Below are positions 16,237-63,864 of a stretch of 64,000 nt of DNA, piece by piece; positions within the stretch are counted from its first letter, which is position 1; each line of letters begins with the position of its first letter. The position numbers and the translations under genes were made by a program. The DNA lies in the NCBI RefSeq assembly GCF_964340395.1, contig NC_135563.1, positions 12,130,651 through 12,194,650 on the forward strand, given 5' to 3'. The notes beneath the pieces were generated by a model, which was not told the DNA's origin, searched no databases, and was given only the letters and a program-made list of their open reading frames with translations. This stretch comes from Glandiceps talaboti. Taxonomy: Eukaryota; Hemichordata; Enteropneusta; Spengelidae.

Positions 16237-19200
16237 TTATTTAATTCCTTTAGCTGCAAGTTCTTCTTTGACTCTCCTAAGGTAGAATGGGTCAGGGTAA
16301 CCATGACTGAAAACAAAAAACAGAAAAATAATCAGATCTTATACAGGTTGCTATTTTTCAAGTATTTCCACAGGGAGCAGGAGCCATGTGATTGTGCACT
16401 ATAGACATCCCTCAACTCTCTTGATCATACATTACAGGCACTGTTAGTGCATATAATTACAGCATTCACATAGCAACCTCTGTCCTACCAGGTCCCCAAT
16501 CTATGCAGTTTGGCTGACTTGGGAACAATCATGTTCAAATCTTGCTCAAAGACTTTAGTCATTCCGAAACAAACAGCAATGGGGGAGGCTTGAACCAGAC
16601 TTGTAGATTTTGAGTGGGGGTGGGGGTGGGTGGTGGAGGCTACTTAAATGTACACCATCTGACCATCATGACTCCACTGCAGGTAGTTATTTGAATTAAT
16701 ATCCACAGTTTTCCTTTACTTTACATTAAATCACACTAGAATACTATGAGGAAAAATGAAAGCCAAACATACTTAGCAGGTCCACCATGACGACTAGTCT
16801 TTTGATGAATATCATTCCACACCACTGCATTGTCCAAACCAGTAGTCAGAGACTGACCAATTGTGAATAACAACTTGGATTTGAAAGCTCTCTGTAACAA
16901 CTTGAGTACTTCTCGACCTTGAGTATTATCTGGTAGGTAAGCTCTTCTTTTCGTACCTTGATATGGCCTTCCTGGATTAGGATGTTCATTCTGTTGAAAA
17001 TATGAAATCATAATTATACAAGTCATGTAGTTAGAGTATGCTTAGCTGTAGCAGTCAATCATCATAGAGTCTGTTAGAGGCATTGGCAGATGTTGATGCT
17101 TTATACATGGATACATGTAAAAATAAATCCTGGGAAACAAAGAAAGTTGGGAAGCCTACATGTACATAGGCCTTAACTATCTACTCCTACAGAGTTGCAT
17201 AGGGGGCTGTTATAATAATTACGAGGAAATTTCTACAAGGCCATACATAATATTGGTAATAGGTTGCCAAATAACATTAAACATGTATATGTATAAGCCA
17301 TAAACATGTTTTCATTATGTAGACTGAAGTATAATTGCACACTTACGGTTTGTGTACCATTAGGGAAATTATATGTGATAATGATAGTGCCACATCCACC
17401 ATAACCAGGAAGTTGCCTGCCTTTATCTACACTGACTTCAATAGTTCCCTCGGGCTGGTTACCTATCATTGGTCCATAAATATAACCACACACAGGACAC
17501 ACTGGCTTATGATCCATTGCTGTATCTATACAAGTTTTGCAGAAGGTGTGTTGACACTTTGGGAGCGTCTTGGCATTGGTGACTCCCTGGAAACAGATTG
17601 GACATTCTCGGACAATTGTAGTAAGGTTAGGTGTTGCAGATCTTGGTCGCTGTACTCTTCTTGTAAGTTGCTGTTTTGCATGTGAAGTTGTTGATGATGA
17701 TGATGATGGAGCTGGATTGACTGTAGAAGCTTGGACCTTGAGTGAACTCTTATCTTTCTCTCCCATTTTGAGCTGCAAGCAGTCATAGCAGTCGCGGCTG
17801 TATTTTTTACAGGTGGAACAAATAAAATGCGGGCAATCTCTCATAGTGTTCAGATTACGATGGGTACGACAAAGTTGACATCGTCTAACCGTACTTCCTT
17901 TCTCTAAGATGCCAGAAGACGGCTTCTTCCTATCAAGGGATGACGATCTCCCTGCTCTAGTTGAGCCATCAGCTGTTTTGGGTCGACCTCTTTCAAGGCT
18001 TCGTGTACGTGTTCTTGCCCCTCTGATGTTGATCGGTGAAAATTCATCATCGACCAAGAGATTATCCAACATTTTCTGAGTCTCTCTGGATCTCTCCCGA
18101 GACTGAGGACCATGCTCATGTTCTTCTAAAATTTCTCGCACCAACGCTTCTTTGTCTTGTGCTGAAACCAGTTTAGATGGATCACCACCAACGGCTCCTT
18201 GATCACCTGTTGATGTAAATGCACCGATTGTTGCTCTCATAGGTTTCATTGGCGCATTCTCTGTTGTGGATCGTCTGTAGTGCCTGTAGCTATCTGCTGT
18301 CTTTGGCCGAAGACCTGGTTGGATTTTTTCTCCGGTAATTCCTGCTCGAGGTGAAGATGCCGATTTTGTTGGAACATATTTATCTAGATCAGCAGAAACT
18401 TTGTACTGCTTGAAAGCTGACTTCCCCTTTGTGTCAGTAGGCATTGGTTTCTTCTGTGTCTCTCTGGTCTCTTTTCGAGGACTTGTATATCTAGCAGATG
18501 AAGAGAGATTTTTGTGTCTATCAGCCTCATCTTCCCGAGGTCGAGAAGATCTTTCAGATGAGAACAATCTTCTGTCTGTCTCACCACGATCGTCCATAGT
18601 CGGTGATCCCCTTAACAATGATGGTGGGGGAGTACTTGGTCTTTTTCGTACCAGAGGGACATCAGAACGTTGTTCTTGGGTAACGATTTCCCGAGGCGTG
18701 CCAGGTCTGGGTCTATCAGCTGCTCCACGACTCAATGGTCTTGGCTCTTCTAGTCGGACACAGCCTGCAAGTTGAAGATTCTCCTGGAATACTTTTCTCA
18801 TGTCATTCACAGTAGATTTCTCATAATCAACAAAGTGTATATCAGTGAGGGTCAAATTTCCATTACTTCTTGGGTGCTCTTTGCTGAATTCCATGACAGC
18901 ATCAAACATAGCTTGTGCCACCATGTCCAAAGGTACTCCAAATATCCCTGTCAAAACACATACATGATGTAGATGCATGTAGTAAATTAACAATTCATTT
19001 CTGAGCTCAATATCATTGGTATTATTTTTCCATGACACAAAAAGCATGTACACTGAGTACATGTATATAAGTACTCTCACAAGTATGGGAGATTTCCAAC
19101 TACATCATCAAGGTGTCAAAATTGGTGCTATTTTCTATCTTTGCTAACTTTCAACTCAGTGACAAAGTATAGATGTGCTACATTGAACAAAGTCATTAGG

Positions 19201-22200
19201 ATATGATCATATCAAGGATATTTGGAAAAAAAAGCATGATACACAGTTTCTCTTTGTCTATGGAATAATGTGCAGATACATTTTGCACATACACATGTTT
19301 CAGTGATTTCGGCAAATTTATTTTAAGTTCATATTATTAACACATCTTCAAAATCGTTCATAAACTTGTAATGAAGAATGAAACATTGTTCCAAATCTCC
19401 ATACAATACATGTATATAAACCTATGCAAAACCTACCTGCACTGATGGGTGGAAGTGCAACTGAAGTAGCTTGTAACAAGTCATTAGCATGGTTGAAGCA
19501 GTTCACAAATGTAACTTTTAAGGAGTCTATACACTCATTCTTGTTCTTGTAATCTTCCCATCGAGGTCCCACTGCATGCATCACATATTTACATGGCAGG
19601 ATACCTGCACCAGTATGAATAACTTCAGTGACAAACAGTGGACCATGGTTGTCGATGTATTCTTCACATTCCCTGTGATAATGACGACCAGCAGCTTTTC
19701 TAATCGAGTAGGCAACCCCTCCAGTATTGATCAGCTGTTCGTGAGCAGCATTTGTGATTGCATCAACTAGTAGCTTGGTGATATCTGCTGTGTATAGTCG
19801 AAGTTTGACTCCATGATCAGTCAGGAATGTCAACTCTCGTTCACTATCACTAAGAACAGTAACACCATGGGTTGGTCTTGAGATGGGTGGAGTTTCATCT
19901 GATTCTGATTCTCCAGACGGTTCTCTCCTACTGACAGCTTCTTCATCTCTGTCATCTTCAAGTTTATCACTTAGTCCTGCATCATCTAAAATTGGATCTG
20001 TTGATGGTTGCGGCTCATCTTCAGTTGGTTGGATGATATCTTGTGGTACTTCGGAAAGTTGTCTATCAGTACTGTCCACAGTGACATCAAGAAAATCATC
20101 TTGCATTTCCATTTCTTTCCTCCGGCCTCCACCTCCGTCTACATCACTTCTTCTACTATCTCCATCAACATCAAATGCTTTGCAAAGCTTGGAAAGTATA
20201 TGAAGCTGTGCAGCCTGAATGATAGGTTTATCACCATAAAGAGCATAATGGTCTGGCTTCTCCCTTTTAAAGTAGACGTTACCAAATTTGATCTTAGCAT
20301 CCTCAACAGCCAGTTCTACCTCTGATTCGTCTAGCCCCTTTGGTAAATGGAAATCAAATTTATCAATGGTCTGGTAGAGGTTGTCATACAGGACAACAAA
20401 CTGATCACGTGCCAACTTCAACTGATCTGTGATGGTCCTCTCTGATTTCGGTAAGATATTGACCATACCGGTATCAGCAGTTTCATCACAGCTAAACCTC
20501 ACATCACAGTCCCTTTCCAATGACTGAAGCTTTCTTTCCTGGGTGTGTTTCATAAACATGTACAAGTCAATATCTACAGCTATAGGACAGACTTCAAAGT
20601 TACCCATATCTGCGGCAATGTCATCTTTGTTAGTCTCAGGACTAGCCATTGAATCATTGAAAAGTAATGTTTCCATATCAGGCTGGAACTCATCACCGAC
20701 ACCCAGTCTGCTTCCTGGCCGTTCAGAGCCAGTTGTACTGAGGACATCAGAGACTGGCATTGAATCATACTCAGCTCGACTACCTAGCCTGTCATATACT
20801 GATGTTGTGATACTTCCAAGATGATTCTCCATGCCAACTGTTTGCTCCTCTCTTCCACCCCTAGAGGGCGGTCTTTCATCCGGTTTGTCATACTTGCCAC
20901 TCACACTACTAGAGATTCCTACATCATCTCTGCCTTGTCGAGAAGAGGGTCTTTTGTATGACGCTGCATCTATATCATTCGAGTCATAATCTTGTCTGGA
21001 TCTAGAGGGCGGCCTTTCACTTTTTTGCGTTATAAAAGTATCTCCAGTACCATAATCCCTAGCTCCTCTTGATGGGGGTCTTTCAGTAGATCTTCTATCA
21101 TCAGCAGTGCTCACTTCAAAATTTTCAATTCCACTTCTTGAAGGCGGTCGCTCAGTACTCCTACCAAGGTCATAACCATTACTGATAACATAATCCTGTC
21201 GACCTCTAGATGGTGGTCTTTCTGGTTGTCTTCCTATATCATTGCTTGTACTGGTGCGATAGTCAGATTTTCCCCTAGATGGTGGTCTTTCTGGTTGTCT
21301 TCCTATATCACTGGTGGCACTGGTGCCATAGCCAGATTTTCCCCTAGACGGTGGTCTTTCTGGTTGTCTTCCTATATCACTATTGGCATTGGTGCCATAG
21401 TCAGATTTTCCCCTCGATGGTGGTCTTTCTGGTTGTCTTCCTATATCACTGGTGGTACTGGTACCATAGTTGGATTTTCCCCTAGATGGTGGCCTTTCTG
21501 GTTGTCTTCCTGTAACATTGGTGGCACTGGTGTGATAGTCAGATTTTCCTCTTGATGGTGGTCTTTCTGGTTGTCTTCCGACCACATCTCGGTCCCTAAC
21601 ACTATAGTCCTGTTTCCCTCTAGATGGTGGTCTTTCAAATGAACTCCCAAGGATTGCTGTTGCTATGGGATCATCTCCAATCACTCCATTGTGAACATCA
21701 CCACCCAGACCATTGAGTTGATTAGCTTCAAGTGGATCACTATCAGATGTTGGACCATTCACAGCACTTCTTGAGTATGTCTTAGAAGCATTGTCTCTTC
21801 TGTCAGCAGATGTCGGTCTTCCTTGATCTTTTGATGCACCACAAAGTTTTTGTAATAATTTTTGTGCACTTTGAATTTGGTACCAATTTCCTTGTAGTAA
21901 GCATTCATTGTTTCCGTTCAGTTCTTTGTATTCGAATATAACGCCTGTCTCATTCTGTATGCTTTGTATTATTGAATCAAAACGGCTTACAGGAATGGAT
22001 TTCACAACATCACCATCAATCACTGCGTAGACACAACTGTACACCTATAAGAATGGAGAGAAAACGAAGAGATGAATCATAATTTTACATACATGTAGTG
22101 TCCATAGTGAGTTAATTCTCGGTACCTGCAAAAGTATTTTACCTCCTCATAGAGTCATAATAGAAGAAGACAGTCGACTTATTCTCATGCCTGCCTATAT

Positions 22201-42307: not shown

Positions 42308-42850
42308 TGTAGTTGAGCATTTTAAAATATAGTTAGCATTTTTGATAGTTTAAGTTTAGTGTTTGGTATAAGTTAACATTTTTGATAGTTTAAGTTTAGC
42401 ATTTGATATAAGTTACCATTTTTGATAGTTTAAGTTTAGTATTTGATATAAGTTAGCATTTTTGATAGTTTAAATTTAGCATTTGATATAAGTTAGCATT
42501 TTTGATAGTTTAAGTTTAGTATTTGATATAAGTTACCATTTTTGATAGTTTAAGTTTAGTATTTGATATAAGTTACCATTTTTGATAGTTTAAGTTTAGC
42601 ATTTGATATAAGTTAGCATTTTTGATAATTTAAGTTTAGTATTTGATATAAGTTACCATTTTTGATAGTTTAAGTTTAGTATTTGATATAAGTTAGCATT
42701 TTTGATAGTTTAAGTTTAGTATTTGATATAAGTTAGCATTTTTGATAGTTTAGCATTTTTTTTATTACTGTGGTTCATTTTTAGAAATAGTTACTTTCGG
42801 TGTCTTTATATAGTTTACATTTTTCGATAGTTTGGGTTTAGTATTTTAGT
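42308..42850 (+). repeat. 40-bp minisatellite running into the transposase start codon
   Basis: About eleven copies of a 40-bp AT-rich unit (…CATTTTTGATAGTTTAAGTT…) fill 42308-42770. Sites alternate among AGTTAGC/AGTTACC and TTTAGT/TTTAGC. After a short break a diverged unit (TTTTTCGATAGTTTGGGTTTAG) occupies 42805-42846 and ends eight bases before the transposase ATG at 42854. So the whole 5' leader and promoter of that gene is built from the repeat. Confidence 0.85.
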
Positions 42851-42853
42851 AAT

Positions 42854-45244
42854 ATGTGTAACGTTGAACCACATAAGGTAACTAGATTAAGAACGGACGT
42901 GAGACTCAGAATTGTGACTTTAAAAAGTCAAGGCCGACGAACTACTGACATTGTCGAACGACTGCGGCAAGACGACCGAATAATCGTCAGCAGGCAGTCG
43001 GTCAACGCCGTCTATAGACGGTATAGAGAACGCGGACACGTTCGCAATTTGGAGCGTCCGCTTGGCGTGGGCACCAAGTATGTACTCCGGCACCTGGCCT
43101 ACATCGATGAGTTGATGGAGCAAAACCGAGAGTTGACCTCAGAAGAACTCACAGCTCGGTTCTGCCTCGCCTTTCCGGAGAATCAACTGTCAGTAGCAAC
43201 CATAAAAAGAGTGAGATTCAAACTAGGGTGGAGACGGACACAGACACGTTATGCTCAAATGGTTCGTGTGGCGAATCGACCCATCCGACGAGACTGGTGT
43301 ATACGTATGTTGGCCACCCACGAGACATTCGATGATGTCATATTCACAGACGAGAGCAGAGTTCAAATAGAGCAACACATGAGAACCCGATACAGAAGAG
43401 TCGGCGAACCCAGTGAACGTCAGGCCAAAGTGAAACATCCATATTCGGTAAGTGTTTTACGTTTTCTTCGTGTTTAGGCCTAACGAATAACAATTGTTTC
43501 ATTCCGGTTACCCTAACCCACCCAGTTGTTCATGTCGATCCTAAACTTGTTTATATCTATTATTCGGGGGAAATGTTTCTCGCAAGTAATAGTCAATTTA
43601 CAAAAGTATATACAATTCTTCTTCCAATCTGTAATGGGTGTATTTTTGATGAGAATAAATCAATGACACAGATACCATATGGAAAACAGCAGAAAACATA
43701 TCTATGATCCGAACTAGAGACTCCGTACTGACAAAAAATGTAAAGAAATAAAATGTAATGGGAACCACGCAATACTTTTTATTACGCGGTAAGGTAATCA
43801 ATACTTTTTTGCTCTGTTGTTCATACTGACGTACTTGTGGGCGGACAGTTACACAGTTTGTGTTCTAAAATACTTTCGGGACTGCGTTTCGAACGGACGA
43901 TGGAACGTACTTTCAAACGAGCCCTATAATGTGTAGGTTGCATATTGTATGGAATTTGGGGTTCATTTTGAAGAAAATAATTACACTACCCACTCGCTTC
44001 CCACCCAGAGTAATCACAGATTGGATTTAACAATCATATGTAAGTTTACAGTCATTTCGTTTTTATTTCCAAACAGGTTTTGGTGTGGGCTGGTATATCG
44101 AAGAAAGGGGCAACACACATTGCCATCTTCAATGGGATTATGAATAGCGAGTGCTATCAAGAGATATTGAGGCAATATTTGATCCCATTCGTTAACGACA
44201 AGTACCCTGATAGCCATCGACTATTTCAGGACAATGATCCTAAACACACCAGTAGGTCAACGAAGGCGTGGTTCGAAGACAATGGTGTTAACCACTGGAA
44301 GTCGCCAGCTGAATCACCAGTAAGTGTAGTTTTTGTTAATTTAGAAGTGCTTCTATGCACACTTCTCTTCTTGTCAAGTCAGTGAACGACTTTGTGTCAG
44401 TATATCTTCATCAGGGTTCTGGGGAAAAGGCCATGTTAGGACTGTCGTTGCCTTTCAATAGATACAAAAATTCCAGATTTTGCCGATACGTGTGGTTTTA
44501 TCACTTTTATTGTATAACATGACAGAAATGTTCTCAAAGTGTTGATTTTGACAAATAGGGCATGACTTGGTTTTATCACTTCTATTGTATTTTCACCAAA
44601 GGAGCGCTAATAAAGTCGCTAATGTGACCAAGAAAGGTGCATATTGAAGCGGCCTTATTAAAATAGGCTCTTTCTCGCTTTTATTGTGAGTGGGCTGAAG
44701 CTAGTTGTTGAATTTAAAAAACAAATGTGTGTAAAGTGCTCGATGCGGATATAAATGATTGAAATGGGGGGACTTGGTGACCACTTCGATTGTTTTCAAT
44801 ATATATATTGTGTATGTGTGTGTGTTGTGTCTCATCTTGTTCATTCCTGCCATTGGTTGTTAGGCAGGACATGACACTGAATGTCAAATGAATATTTCAG
44901 AGTATGTTGCGTGTTGTCATTCAGGTACTACTAATAGCTAGTCTATACAAATTGAATAGAATACATGTATTGTGTACAAAAAGATGATTCATCAGTTTTC
45001 CAAGTTTACATCAATGTCATACTTTATTTTTTGATAGGATATCAACCCAATCGAGAACATGTGGGGATCCATGAAGAGGTATCTACGGAAGCACATTAAG
45101 CCGAAAAACAAAGCAGAATTAATTGGAGGAATTAAGGAATTCTGGAGGACCTTGACACCCGCGATATGCACTAAATACATCAGCCATATTCACAAAGTGA
45201 TGCCGGTAGTCATAGCCCGAGACGGCCGTGCTTCAGGCTTTTAG
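42854..45244 (+). CDS. Tc1/mariner-type transposase, three exons, intact DD34E
   Basis: Exons 42854-43447, 44077-44319 and 45038-45244 join in phase 0 at consensus GT-AG sites to give 347 aa, the normal Tc1 transposase length. The N-terminal part is helix-turn-helix DNA binding (TTDIVERLRQDDRIIVSRQS). Catalytic residues are D166 (IFTDES), D250 (FQDNDPKHT) and E285 (NPIENMWGSMKR), with 34 residues between the last two. Intron 2 falls between SPAESP and DINPIE, inside the catalytic core. No stop or frameshift is present. Most Tc1 transposases are intronless, so this is either an intron-bearing family or a captured host gene. I did not find terminal inverted repeats. The C-terminus ends IARDGRASGF. 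Confidence 0.85.
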
Positions 45245-54091: not shown

Positions 54092-56840
54092 TAATAGGTT
54101 CATGTTGCAGCTAGTGCAGCTTTAACAACCGATGAGATTTACCCGGCAAATATCGTATACTATAAAAAATAAACCCAAAAAAACTAAACAGTGATATACA
54201 TTGAAGTATACTAATAAATAACAATATGTGTACTGGCCAGAAGCCATGAGGAATAGAGAAATGTTTATGATGACGTAATTTCTTAGAGTGAATTACATTG
54301 TGTATGCTTGATACCTCTTGAACAACAATGTGTAGCTATGAATATGGACGTGTGTGTTCAATGAGTTGAATGAGAAACAACTGAGCTTTTGCTGTGAAGG
54401 ACCTAGAAGTTCAGAACTATTAATTTTGGTAGAGGAGATATGCCTCTCTTCTCCTCTCGATCATAAATAGACTAATAGAGCGGTTACCACGACTTCCTTA
54501 CTTGTAAACACACATAATTGTAGATAGTGTCAGACTGAGCCCCACAACGATCTACACAAACAATCCCTTTTGTTATCGACATAAATTGTTCTGTTGCCAT
54601 ATAGAGCACAGAACAATGATTGTTCAAGTTGTCGCTATAGTGGTCTTAAAATGGCCATATGGATGAGGATTTTCAATTTATAAAACATTTTTTATCGTGG
54701 TTTCTTACTTTAAAAAATAATACAACCAAGTTTCATGTGTTTGAATTCAATAAATTGCAAAAAGCAACAAAATGCCTTTTAAAAAAGTATGTTATTGTAA
54801 ACATATTGCACATTAATTTATTAATCATTTGCAATTTATTGAGTTACAAACAAGGCCTTGGCGTATTTGTTTCACAACATCGTTTTACAAGAAGGAAGCC
54901 ATGATAAAATAGTTTTATGAATCCAAAATCCAAAATAAATACCCAATCCTTATCCATATGGCCACTTTAATGCACATGTATAAGTAACAATAAAGTAAAA
55001 AATACAATTAAATGTTAGCATGGAACAAAAACTGAAACACTATTTATCCAGTAGGACTAAACGAATAGAAACCATGAATATAGAAAACATTTTTAAAAGG
55101 ATCTGTGCTGATGTACATAATTGTTTCTAGTCATTCGATAGATGTCTGAAGTCAGCCAAATTAATTATCCACATAATTAACTATTTAAAACAATACTTAA
55201 CACTGTAGCTTTTCCGAGGCCTTTTAGAATGTGTGCAACAATAACTGTCAATGCCATATTTATGATGCAATTTCAAATGTTTTTATTGTTTATTTTCTAT
55301 ACAGGTATTCCACAACCTTACAGCAGATATCGATCATGATTTGATCAGATCCATTCCAGAAGCGAGAAATACTTTACAGTGGCAATTCGGACTGCAGTGT
55401 AAAGAGAACGAGACGTACGGAGAGAAATACTACACCGTCAGAGGAAACTGGTTCCAAATTGATGCCGCTCGTCGATACCTCGAGGAACTTAGTGGTCGAG
55501 GCGAATCACATTCTTCTGCCAAATGGACAAGAGATGGCGCTGGTGCGTCTGACGCCATTTCATCCAAGATCTGGCGATTTATGGGCTCTGATCATACGGA
55601 AGAAGAACTACCATCGGCGTCTGCACGTGAAAAGTATACATCAAGAGAGAGTGGCGCAGACAGTGAATCGTGGCCGTTACCGAAGAGAACAATCGGAATA
55701 TCGGATCTAGAAGCTGCAGTAGAAGGGGCACATGGAGGAGCAAAAGCTTTAGATGAAGACATCGAAGGTCTCCTTGATGATGGCGATAGAATTGGAAGAG
55801 GAGGGCGGGGTATTGATTTATTGAGTGAAGCAACAGTACTTTCGATGGTAATGGACGATTTTGAAGAGGATGGAGGAGATGACTCAGGAGGAAACCATAC
55901 AAGCCTGCAGGTTGATGCAGATGTTTTCCGATACTTAGAAATAGCACATCAAGAAAGCCTAAAGACAATCCAAGACGAATGTAATGTTGATTTGAAAAAC
56001 GATGGAGGAACTACCATAACATCTGTGGTTATTTCTCCAGCCTCTTCTGAAACAGCTCCAGGTCAGGTCCAAAGGGCTAAACAACAGTTCGTCTCCATCT
56101 ATGAAAGCACGTTTCATAATTTGAAGAAGTATGACCTGCACGTACCAGAAGGAATTAGCGACCAAGAGAAGATAGAACTAGCAGCACTGGATACTCAGAC
56201 TAACGTACCAGATGTTTTGGTCAAGCAAGAGGATGCCAGTCACTATGCCATATATGGAAGTGGACGTTCAATTGAGCAGGCTAAGAGACATTTCTTTGAC
56301 AAGCTCTCAGTCGCCATGGATTCTGGTCGAGTCAAGGTGCGCTCCTGGGAAGCCGATCTAAGTGACAAGATTAGAGATATGGAACCTCTGACTGCAGACG
56401 AAAAGCCTAAACCAAAAGAAGAAATATTTGAGTCTTTGCTTACCAAGATCAGAGAAGGTGCATCTAAGATTGCAGATGAAGAAACACCCGAAGATGATGG
56501 CAAGAGTGGCGTAGAAGAAGATGAAGTTGACAAGATAGCAAGAGAGATTAAAAAGGCCACATTTCCAGGAATTGCAGCAGATATGCCCGGAGCATCATTA
56601 ATGGATAATCCCCAAAGCGATACAGTTGAAACTTCTCCTAGGGAATCGACGGGCGAAATTCGTGTCGAAGAAGATAAATCAGACGAGCTCAAAGAAGACG
56701 AAGAAGGAGGTGAGGATGGGGGACACGATACCCATAAAGATGAAGATGATAAAGAAATTCATGAGGATACGAAAGAGGAAGAGAAACCAGACGATGCAGG
56801 TTTAAAGGAAAGTGATAGCACTGAAACTTCAAAAGCTTGA
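52446..56840 (+). CDS. RRM/KH-like protein, paralog of the DTX3L-like N-terminal half
   Basis: Exons 52446-52623, 53010-53083 and 55305-56840 join in frame to give 595 aa. Residues 1-84 are an RRM (SIIVSGIPAGVTRDQLEIHF, NGGGDV) split by a phase-1 intron at the same place as in the DTX3L-like gene, and both second exons are 74 nt. A KH-like segment follows (about 85-150: IRSIPEARNTLQWQFG, VRGNWFQIDAARRYLEEL), then a second (about 285-430: LQVDADVFRYLEIAHQES, HYAIYGSGRSIEQAKRHF) matching the same region of the larger paralog. The last ~130 residues are strongly acidic. There is no macro, RING or Deltex domain. I infer an adaptor or competitor of the DTX3L-like ligase. AATAAA lies at 57531. Confidence 0.85.
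53978..54090. repeat. (TTG)n-(TCG)n-(TTG)n trinucleotide repeat
   Basis: About 113 bp, in intron 2 of the RRM gene. Apparent polyCys/polyArg or polyGln ORFs here are by-products. Confidence 0.95.
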
Positions 56841-60324: not shown

Positions 60325-61907
60325 CTACGAACAAGTGTTCCTGCTTCTCCTCTTTCTATGTTTGAGTGCTATCTGCTGCTGTCTTGGAATACCACCAGTA
60401 CTCATTCTGGCTGTACGTTTTTTATGTGGTAGTTTTTCTCCCTGTTTAGGGCTAGTCTTTGGTATTGCATCACTTGTAATTCTGATCAACAGCCTTGGCT
60501 TTCGTACTTTTCCTCCTGTACTCATTCTAGCTGTGCATTTGGCAGGCCTTTGTTGTTGCGTAGTTGTCGCCGTCTTACATGATATTTCCTGCATTAATGG
60601 TTCTTTATTTTCCCCTCCATCCACACTCCTTGCAGGTTGCTTAGGTGATGGGGATCTTAGGCAAGCCTTTGGAAGCTCTCGCGTAGCCTTAACTTCATAT
60701 GTCTTAGGAAAAAGAACAGAAAAGGCATTTTAAAGTGGCAATATAGATGAGTAATATGTATCGATCTTTGACTTTAAATAAAAAAAACAACTCTGGCACA
60801 AAACGATCATTGACAATGAATGTATAACTATATAGATTACTAAGAATCAAAATGTTGACAATCAAAGTCTTATTGTCCTCATCTATGGCTCACTCCACAA
60901 AAAAATAATTGTTGAATTTTAACTAACACATCATTGAATTTTGGCAACTAGAGTTTATTAGATAACTTTTCCTTCAGATGAACATACCTTCAATTTTGGC
61001 AGAAGAGGTCTCACTTCTATAACATGACCAGACATCATTTGTCTTTTCATAACGACACTCTGTGTAGCTGGAATATACAGAAATAAAAGTAAAATTATCA
61101 ATCTTGAATGAAGAAAAGAGAAAGAAGTATATTTTACAGCAAAAAATGTACAAAGTTGATCATAAGTTAAACAGCATAAACTGAGGAAAATGTACAAATT
61201 AGTTCTTGTTTATACAACCGAAGGTTGTAATTATTTATGAGTAATTTGCCTGTTCAGGTTGACAGGCTTTGTAAATACTAACAGAAAAAAATAAATGCTT
61301 TAAATATTAAAATCTTTGAATTCCCAGTAATGGAATAATAATGATAATAATCATTAAATGTTATATTTGTATAGTGCATTCCCACACTGTGCTTGAAGTA
61401 CTTTACAATTTATTACCCCTGGCATGGACCTATTATGGCACAATAACCCTGTTATACTTTCTCACCTCCCTGTGAATCATACAATCAATTACAGCCTCTG
61501 TAAGCACATATAATTAAGTATTCACATTAAATATTGTAACCTCTATCCTACCAGGTCCCAAGCTGGGTTGACTGGGACACAATCATGGTTCAATTCTTGT
61601 CCAAGGAATTTAGCCATTCAGAGAGAGATGGCAGAGTTGCAGCTTGAAAATGCAACCCACAGATTCCGAGCCGATCACTCTAACCATTCAAGCATCAAGA
61701 CGCTACTCAATATGTATGGATAACTGTGTACTTACTTTCTTCATTAGCAAAGGTAACAACAGCAGTATCAACTTCATCCAAATCTAACGGATATACCACA
61801 TTGGTCACTTCCCCACCACCATTTTGTTTTTCCTGAAAATAATTCTTCAGTTGTTTGATAGTAGTATTTTTTGGAATCCCACTTGCCACTATGCAACGGT
61901 TCATCAT
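60325..61907 (-). CDS. RRM protein with two histone H3 tail (K9M-like) mimic segments
   Basis: Exons 61907-61736, 61067-60988 and 60702-60325 join in frame to give 209 aa. The RRM (CIVASGIPKNTTIKQL, NGGGEV, VVTFANEE) has the same phase-1 split as the two other RRM genes, and exon 1 is 172 nt in both this gene and the DTX3L-like gene. Exon 3 is basic and contains TARMSTGG at residues 141-148 (in KCTARMSTGGKVRKP) and at 181-188 (in KRTARMSTGGIPRQQ). Histone H3 residues 6-13 are TARKSTGG, so both copies match except K9 to Met. The two copies differ only at synonymous third positions. The end KHRKRRSRN looks like a nuclear signal. The frame is open a few codons upstream of the ATG to an acceptor at about 61919, so an upstream exon exists and may extend the N-terminus. 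Confidence 0.8.
60391..60534 (-). other. Two H3-tail mimic codon blocks, 40 residues apart
   Basis: Codon blocks at 60534-60511 and 60414-60391 both encode TARMSTGG. Four of 24 bases differ (GCT/GCC, ACA/ACT, GGA/GGT twice) and all four changes are silent. Confidence 0.85.
61330..61700 (-). mobile_element. SINE-like element with tRNA-like head
   Basis: On the minus strand the head reads GAATGGTTAGAGTGATCGG (about 61691-61673), like a tRNA D-arm region. The body matches 16435-16640, and the tail contains a stretch common in invertebrate repeats (CACACTGTGCTTGAAGTACTTTACAA on the forward strand). It lies in intron 1 of the 209-aa RRM gene. Confidence 0.55.
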
Positions 61908-63864
61908 GTCAGCGGTCACATTACAATCTGAAAACAAACAAGATTTTCAATCATTCCCAATACTGACTGAAATAACAATTATGTAACCCCTAGAACTCCC
62001 TCCCCTTCTTGAAGAAGATCAATCTGATTAAAATATGATGTGCCGAAAGCAGCTAGATGTCTTTATTTACCTTTATTTCCATCATTTGTGTTATTTGTTT
62101 TGTTGTTTGTCAAAACATAATGACTGCATTTCTGGCACATAACAAGGGTTGGTAAAACTCAATGATTTGCAATATACAACCTAACTATCTCTTCTAGAAT
62201 TCTTTTTCTGCTTTCTGCAACATGTACTAAGAACATAGACATATAATTGAATATACTTCTAAATGAAAAAATCAATTTGGGTACATTGACTTGCAATTTT
62301 CCAGTCTCTTAAAACTCTATTGTGAGTCATACACTTCATTCAGACTGAGTGGATGAATCATGTTTTTATATTAGGGTGATTTATCACAAAATATTATGTT
62401 ACACAAATAATAAAACATATTTATCACTTTCTTGAAACCAAATTGCATTTTCAGCAATGAATTGCAAAACAACCATTCAAAGTGACAGCTCAACGCATAT
62501 GGTATCAAATCTAAATTGCCTTTACCTTAGTTATTTTAACATGGGGGAGTGGGCTGATTTGATACATGGTTTCCTACATGGTTGTATCAAACAGAGCCAG
62601 TAAACATGAATCTGGCTGTATTATAGGTTAATTTGATATACTTCTTAGCATAAAAGATCCAGGCATTCTTTATGTGAGTGGTTATACATAAACGGACCAA
62701 CGACTGGACCTTTCAGACTAACATACTTCTCCAATACAGAATACAGTATATAGAATATAGTAACACAATTTAAATATTTGCATTTGGTATGCGTGTTTGT
62801 AATGAATATGTAAATTTAAAGTATTGGAGCACCAGCAAAACTGATGAGCCGTCATCCACATATGTAGACTTTGTTGGCCAGGCTCATCTTCTGGGTCAGT
62901 CACATGACTCATCACTGGAATCATCATGTGAAAACACGATGAAAAAACAGATTGGAATCCCACGTGTGAAAGATGAAAATGTCAGTTCAACTTTAGATCT
63001 GATTAAATTTCTAATACACAAATTATTATTCCCTAAATATCAAATGTAAACATAGTAAAAAATGTCGTATGCTTGTGGGTTTTATTTTGTTGCCTATTCT
63101 GGTTCACCTGATATTTCGTAATAAATATTTGTTGACTGAACTTTGTTCACATAGTTTCTATCTAAAAACGCTGATCAGGCGATTACCGACTTTACAACAT
63201 TCCGGTGTTGATGTTGCAAAGGTTATATTTAGAACAACAACGTCCTTCGACAAAAGAAGTCATGTGTGACTTTTGGTTTGATCATCATATTGTGCATAAT
63301 TTAATTCTTAGACTGTCAACGAGTTCCATAATGAAATTTTAATAAGTTAATGGAGTACGCTGTCGTTAATTATAGTCATGTACATGTACACCTCAGACAA
63401 CTAGACTCTATAGTGATCTGGGTGTACACAGTGTATTACGTGCAGGTATCACCTTACGACTTGTAAAATACTCATTCTGAGGACTGTACATTTAAAGAAG
63501 GAGAGAAGAAAGTAAACAAAGGCAAATTAACGACGAACGACCGTCGTTCTACGAAAGAGGAAAAAAAGACTCAGCAATAAACCACGCTTTAAATATATTA
63601 TACTAGTAACAACACATTTTCCCTACTACGTCGCTTGGAGTACATAGGATTGAAAACAGGAAAGTGAAGAATTGACATGCATGGTTCACTTTGAAAATAA
63701 TTTAAATATATCCATTGAAAAAAGGTTCAAATAACCTCATTTGACCTTTAACCTAGATATCAACAATCGCATACATGCATGTTTACACGAAGGATATGAC
63801 TCTCCTACACACGATGGTATGAGTACAGTGCATCTTGGTGTGTAAAACATAATTAAATACTTAC
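61908..63864. other. Upstream intron/5' region of the third RRM gene
   Basis: No coding exon recognised. The ORF pair at 62718-63049 has no similarity I can name. Confidence 0.35.

Follow-up and report, generated by a model that had tools for sequence, protein, structure and literature searches.

Substitution of a target lysine by methionine in the histone H3 tail is familiar both from cancer, where it occurs as a mutation, and from its experimental use. To our knowledge, EZHIP, which addresses K27, is the one natural K-to-M protein known. EZHIP (also CXorf67 or CATACOMB) is a largely disordered non-histone protein in which a short H3-like segment carries methionine in place of the target lysine, according to the excerpted texts of PMC6513997 and PMC12713659. 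It acts as an H3K27M-like inhibitor of PRC2, with homologs reported, in the excerpted account, in placental mammals only (PMC6513997). At K9, the corresponding substitution is described for mutant histones and synthetic peptides. The crystal of G9a with an H3K9M peptide and SAM shows order for residues 3-12 of the peptide, with five aromatic side chains surrounding the methionine in the lysine pocket. Binding of the peptide to Clr4 and G9a depends on SAM, in whose presence it is stronger than that of the wild-type tail, and in fission yeast H3K9 methylation is blocked by H3K9M (PMC5030085, in the sections available). The G9a/GLP automethylation mimics of the ARKS type also present an H3K9-like linear motif in a non-histone protein, and the available passages on them describe a retained lysine that is methylated and then read by HP1 (PMC9768651, PMC10611923).

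Within the window (the whole 64,000-nucleotide stretch of Glandiceps talaboti DNA analysed here), we find a minus-strand gene for a 209-residue RRM protein whose basic tail contains the octamer TARMSTGG twice, and the same octamer recurs elsewhere in the genome in a second, unrelated family of small proteins. Engineered H3K9M peptides carry exactly this octamer (PMC5030085, PMC9677696, in the portions available); here it belongs to genome-encoded non-histone proteins instead of mutant histones or synthetic peptides. As in EZHIP, methionine takes the place of the target lysine within an H3-tail segment of a non-histone protein. They differ from EZHIP in the residue concerned (K9 in lieu of K27), in protein and lineage, in comprising two unrelated families, one of them with an RRM and two motif copies, and in that inhibition is here proposed from sequence. 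The likeness proposed is one of how the proteins would work. Unlike the ARKS-type mimics, they hold methionine at the ninth position in five of five copies; the lysine in an ARK motif that marks an H3K9-like methylation substrate such as G9a K185 is absent. The coordinates of all features are collected in Table 1.

Table 1. Coordinates of the RRM gene, the motif copies, the second family and neighbouring or related features (window positions unless a contig is named)
Feature	Position	Strand	Description or basis
RRM gene	61927-60325	-	three exons; spliced translation
Exon 1	61736..61927	-	5'UTR end, initiating ATG at 61907, beginning of the RRM; GT-AG check and translation
Upstream start-stop ORF	61921-61916	-	ATGTGA, in exon 1
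Exon 2	60988..61067	-	remainder of the RRM; acceptor TATTCCAG, donor GTATGTTC
Exon 3	60325..60702	-	125-residue basic tail, open to TAG stop, stop included
H3K9M-like motif copy 1	60511..60534	-	K-C-TARMSTGG-K (H3 positions 4-14); spliced translation
H3K9M-like motif copy 2	60391..60414	-	K-R-TARMSTGG-I; spliced translation
Second-family gene, 165 residues	C2 17874074-17874568	+	TARMSTGG match
Second-family gene, 159 residues	C5 10533729-10534205	-	TARMSTGG match
Second-family gene, 159 residues	C5 10537325-10537801	-	TARMSTGG match
DTX3L-like RING/Deltex ORF, macro-domain ORF, DTX3L-KH ORF	17236-22044; 55266-56837	-; +	macro-domain ORF with many 12-residue repeats
Mariner-like transposase pieces	42842-44382	+	broken; ORF list, by eye
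H3-tail-like ORF, 90 residues	C6:10629393-10629665	+	26 of 34 residues as in the H3 tail

The RRM gene is joined by two canonical introns of 668 bp (GTAAGT..CAG) and 285 bp (GTATGT..AAG), both of which keep the reading frame, and its spliced product has a pI of 10.3. Residues 4-85 match the Pfam family RRM_PARP14_3 (PF23085) with an E value of 2.8e-13 and 50.2 bits against a curated cut-off of 24; the match is nearly complete, spanning positions 2-80 of the 82 in the profile. The Pfam scan of the protein found no histone family at E 0.01, and hence no histone fold, and NCBIfam returned no family for any of the three proteins searched. The tail encoded by exon 3 (pI 11.2, 30 Lys and Arg against 8 Asp and Glu) is called disordered by charge-hydropathy. 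A genome search with this tail matched itself alone (one match among three candidates scored), at a limited sensitivity that also missed the second family. The protein thus shares the PARP14-type RRM with RRM_PARP14 and NMI-IFI35 proteins and differs from them in an H3-like tail for which no counterpart was found elsewhere in the genome. Because TTTTCAG precedes exon 1, a further 5'UTR exon upstream is implied, although it was not located. None of the four types of poly-A signal sought occurs within 425 bases 3' of the stop codon. An upstream ORF of the start-stop type is also present in exon 1, with its ATG 14 nt ahead of the gene's own start codon, and it is possible that this element exerts translational control.

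The preliminary description had read TARMSTGG twice in the basic tail, with seven of eight residues equal to H3 positions 6-13, the same K9-to-Met change in both copies and, in the first, a longer match through lysines at the K4 and K14 positions. The spliced translation bears out each of these points. The second copy also has a lysine at position 4, followed by an isoleucine at position 14. The two copies lie 120 nt apart; they show four silent differences inside the motif, and their flanks are, by eye, little alike at the codon level beyond the octamer and K4. The mimic peptide segments around the motif read KCTARMSTGGKVRK and KKRTARMSTGGIPR, and the motif-bearing segments KCTARMSTGGKVRKPR and KKRTARMSTGGIPRQQQ; the corresponding segment of the second family reads KTTARMSTGGKPKWW.

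Across the genome (590.4 Mb, both strands), sequence with the window's base composition (GC 36.3%) would be expected to give 0.014 chance occurrences of TARMSTGG, 0.0007 of KxTARMSTGG and 0.24 of the wider pattern actually searched. All genomic motif counts are lower bounds. TARMSTGG was observed in at least five places, all with serine at position 10 and lysine at position 4; the reversed pattern used as a control gave none. All five copies lie outside H3, spread over the two unrelated protein families, and all extend to KxTARMSTGG, with R8, S10, T11, G12 and G13 kept in five of five and K14 in four. The histone octamer TARKSTGG occurs in at least 17 places, every one of the 17 with a full H3 tail; the histone fold runs on uninterrupted in 14 of these, and three run into apparent introns. 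When Phe, Leu, Ile, Met or Val was allowed at the ninth residue, the search gave at least six matches, namely the five with methionine and one TASISTGG, against one for its reversed control. A ninth codon of the form VVN gave at least 19, again against one for the control; apart from the 17 H3 genes, these were a single match with Arg and another with Gly. Lysine at the ninth position is thus found only in H3 genes and methionine only in non-histone proteins, so that in this genome K marks H3 and M marks the non-histone proteins. No match was found in the same genome to the K27M-like sequence KAARMSAP.

In the second family, the motif reads K-T-TARMSTGGKPKWW and is accompanied by clusters of Lys and Arg. 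By eye, the coding exon of each gene follows an acceptor of the TTTTCAG or TTTCAG type and is preceded by a 5' exon whose donor is GTAAG. The proteins are called disordered by charge-hydropathy. Pfam scans of two of the three copies detected no histone family, and the matches that did appear (best DTHCT, E 0.0063; Snurportin1, E 0.99) were weak and fell short of the cut-off. A tblastn search detected no viral relatives. A decayed fourth copy on contig C5 reads TSVRMSTGG, and one fragment exists besides; because of these remnants, we conclude that the family also loses members, in the manner of EZHIP, of which duplicates and pseudogenes occur (PMC6513997, PMC12713659, in their excerpted texts). 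Comparison of the C2 gene with a C5 copy over codons 1-95, which include the motif, yields 19 silent and 5 changed of 94 codons compared (dN 0.026, dS 0.555), and hence a dN/dS near 0.05. The remaining 65 codons show 3 silent and 16 changed (dN 0.160, dS 0.158). This difference indicates that the N-terminal block is constrained while the C-terminal part is free or fast-changing. The constraint covers the whole of the first 95 codons and not the motif alone, which sets this family apart from EZHIP.

The C2 member of this family stands head to head with an apparent Spindle-E/TDRD9-type helicase gene, the first coding ORFs being divergent and 0.88 kb apart (C2:17873195-17874074). We read the divergent ORF as the N-terminal exon of a helicase of the TDRD9 type. 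Some 13 kb beyond it, in the same orientation, is a piece with Spindle-E as its best solved relative (E 2.6e-10), and between the two is a weak DEAD-helicase match just below cut-off (E 3.5e-5). The three pieces may form one gene, possibly with a germline piRNA role. A shared promoter and germline co-expression of the two genes are possible.

The motif itself varies only silently. Six sites vary among its four 24-nt versions, and every one is a third position. Since no further copy of the RRM-gene tail was found at this search sensitivity, constraint on it is read from the intragenic pair and from the second family. All mimic versions spell Arg as AGA and Ser as AGY, while the H3 genes found use TCN for Ser in 17 of 17 and CGY for Arg in 16 of 17. 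On the 3' side of STGG, 820 and 581 of 5000 shuffles resemble H3 as well as the two RRM-gene copies do, and 3882 and 3856 as well as the second-family copies. As the flanks resemble H3 no better than shuffles, the likeness is that of a short motif and not of an H3-derived domain. We therefore set aside an H3-derived exon on the grounds of these flanks and of the Ser codon class, and a recent origin of the motif from an H3 gene is unlikely. The AGA and AGY spelling fits both shared descent and convergence of the two families and does not tell between them. A profile of the four mimic segments, two of them near-identical, retrieved 130 PDB sequences up to E 10, of which the best 60 are all H3 or H3-type chains (top E 0.0035). 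A search for a viral origin with the pattern KxTARM[S/T..]TGG returned four viral contigs that carry two different sequences; in each of these the octamer is TARMTTGG, Thr replacing Ser 10. In IMGVR_UViG_3300023174_000463 and IMGVR_UViG_3300023179_007757, an ORF reads KKTTARMTTGGYVYE, close to the K9M motif apart from the same Thr. These viral occurrences are probably due to chance; the ORF around one of them may be genuine.

On this evidence, we lean slightly towards the view that the tail of the RRM protein and the second-family proteins imitate the substrate of H3K9 methyltransferases and thereby act as natural inhibitors, or traps, of these enzymes. Like the H3 tail, KxTARMSTGG would lodge in the SET-domain groove of an EHMT (G9a/GLP) or SUV39H enzyme, and the methionine would occupy the lysine channel, where it could not be methylated and would hold the enzyme in a SAM-dependent dead-end complex, much as EZHIP does PRC2 at K27. 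Two motifs within one tail may confer higher avidity, and the PARP14/NMI-type RRM may set the place of action, perhaps an RNA or an immune-type complex. Binding, inhibition, nuclear location, expression and the purpose of the RRM are all inferred parts of this scheme. K4 and T6-G12, identical in all five copies, make up eight of the ten residues ordered in the G9a-H3K9M-SAM crystal; T3 and Q5 are not kept. The genome also encodes candidate target enzymes, as judged by similarity: a SUV39H2-like chromodomain/Pre-SET exon (E 3.4e-56), an exon closest to EHMT2 (E 7e-25) and a second Pre-SET exon (Pre-SET E 1.6e-10) that is EHMT-like by eye. A further Pre-SET/SET ORF presumably belongs to SETMAR. 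Counting against the scheme, GLP preferred the H3K9M peptide but G9a bound modified and unmodified H3 about equally, as far as the available text of PMC9677696 goes. The two footprint residues that differ, the spread of constraint over the whole N-terminal block of the second family, and the decayed copy and fragment of that family weigh in the same direction.

The preliminary description had left two functions side by side, a regulator of H3K9 methylation and a decoy for H3-tail readers. The former has gained from the recurrence of the motif in a second family, from lysine occurring only in H3 genes, from the silent-only variation and from the SUV39H- and EHMT-like exons. A decoy for methyl-lysine readers (HP1, chromodomains) is set aside with the substrate reading, since either would need a lysine and Lys 9 is missing from all five copies. 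For methionine in five of five, inhibition by K-to-M mimicry would be the simplest explanation.

The main rival is a partner that ignores position 9. The motif would then imitate the H3 tail for a protein that tolerates methionine there, and its bearers would be substrates or decoys of that protein. Possible partners of this kind are an Aurora-type kinase (R8-x-S10), an acetyltransferase reading STGGK14, and a histone chaperone or importin. In favour of such a partner, R8, S10, T11, G12 and G13 are kept throughout and K14 in all but one copy, and Aurora B acts beside the histone-mimic sites in G9a and GLP, in the excerpt of PMC9768651. Against it, many H3 readers need a free N-terminal ART, which the mimic proteins lack, K14 is absent from the second RRM-gene copy, and such a partner leaves unexplained why position 9 is always methionine, never lysine or another hydrophobic residue. 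Taking these points together, we regard such a partner as unlikely.

Somewhat less likely still is that KxTARMSTGG is a lineage-specific protein-binding motif common to the two families and only coincidentally like H3. The shared AGA/AGY spelling, unlike that of H3 genes, means that the copies need not come from H3, and flanks that do no better than shuffles fit this reading as well. Nevertheless, eight residues that coincide with the H3K9M footprint in the G9a crystal (K4, T6-G12), within tails called disordered, make an improbable coincidence, and the best 60 of the 130 PDB matches to the profile are all H3-type. That the octamers are accidental, in a tail that is non-coding or a decayed exon, seems very improbable. 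The tail is indeed single copy and the gene is a prediction from sequence; however, five octamers are found where 0.014 are expected per genome, the frame runs on from a nearly complete RRM match via two canonical introns, and the second family is under constraint. We thus retain inhibition of H3K9 methyltransferases as the preferred reading.

Among 5.39 million open-licence PMC texts, TARMSTGG appears in two, each time within an engineered H3K9M peptide (PMC5030085, PMC9677696), and no natural H3K9M mimic was found in that literature. Natural K-to-M mimicry is already known for K27 from EZHIP; what is new here is the target residue K9, the protein families and the lineage. If natural K9M mimics are real, evolution has applied the same trick to heterochromatin in a lineage other than mammals, perhaps repeatedly. 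Regulated inhibition of H3K9 methylation would then have a physiological context, G9a, GLP and SUV39H would have natural peptide inhibitors, and the proteins may be natural brakes on gene silencing.

On C6, a 90-residue ORF matches the H3 tail in 26 of 34 residues; five of the eight differences replace Lys with Arg (K4, K9, K18, K23 and K27), and K14 is kept. By tblastn, no histone fold was detected in the 4.2 kb downstream. This ORF encodes either another type of H3-tail mimic or an unusual variant of H3. A broader proposal, which we offer tentatively and rate at rather less than an even chance, is that the lineage has repeatedly evolved H3-tail mimics directed against the H3K9 methylation machinery: the immune-type RRM protein with two K9M motifs, the duplicating family with its C2 copy beside the Spindle-E/TDRD9-like gene, and the K-to-R tail protein. 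They would include the first natural K-to-M inhibitors of H3K9 methyltransferases, and a conflict about transposon or germline silencing may have shaped them.

The window also holds an ORF with RING and Deltex C-terminal domains, one with a macro domain and one with DTX3L-KH, together with two further PARP14-type RRM ORFs, which places the RRM gene in a DTX3L/PARP14-like neighbourhood. By sequence similarity, we assign the RING/Deltex, macro-domain and DTX3L-KH ORFs to an invertebrate DTX3L/PARP14-like cluster. PARP14-type RRMs are expanded in this genome, with at least 47 matches at E 0.01 or better, many of them clustered, on contigs C15, C1, C10, C13, C22 and C16. From this setting, the RRM gene may have an immune role through release of H3K9-based repression. 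Broken mariner-like transposase pieces lie elsewhere in the window.

Contig C40 carries three COX1 copies 15,435 bases apart, that is, the mitochondrial genome in tandem (GC 54% over 8 kb), which is either an assembly artefact or a concatemer. In the seven mitochondrial genes counted, with approximate boundaries, there is no AAA, AGA or AGG codon and AAG is common (25); the tRNA-Lys anticodon is CTT. The Balanoglossus table has AAA and AGG absent and a tRNA-Lys with CUU, an agreement that points tentatively to an acorn worm (PMC3121625). Two observations speak against this assignment. The text of the same paper, in the part available, names AAA and AAG as missing, and AAG is common here. Cytochrome b lies between ATP6 and COX3 on this contig, unlike the arrangement in two described hemichordates, where the accessible text places nd5 and cob adjacent (PMC2697986).
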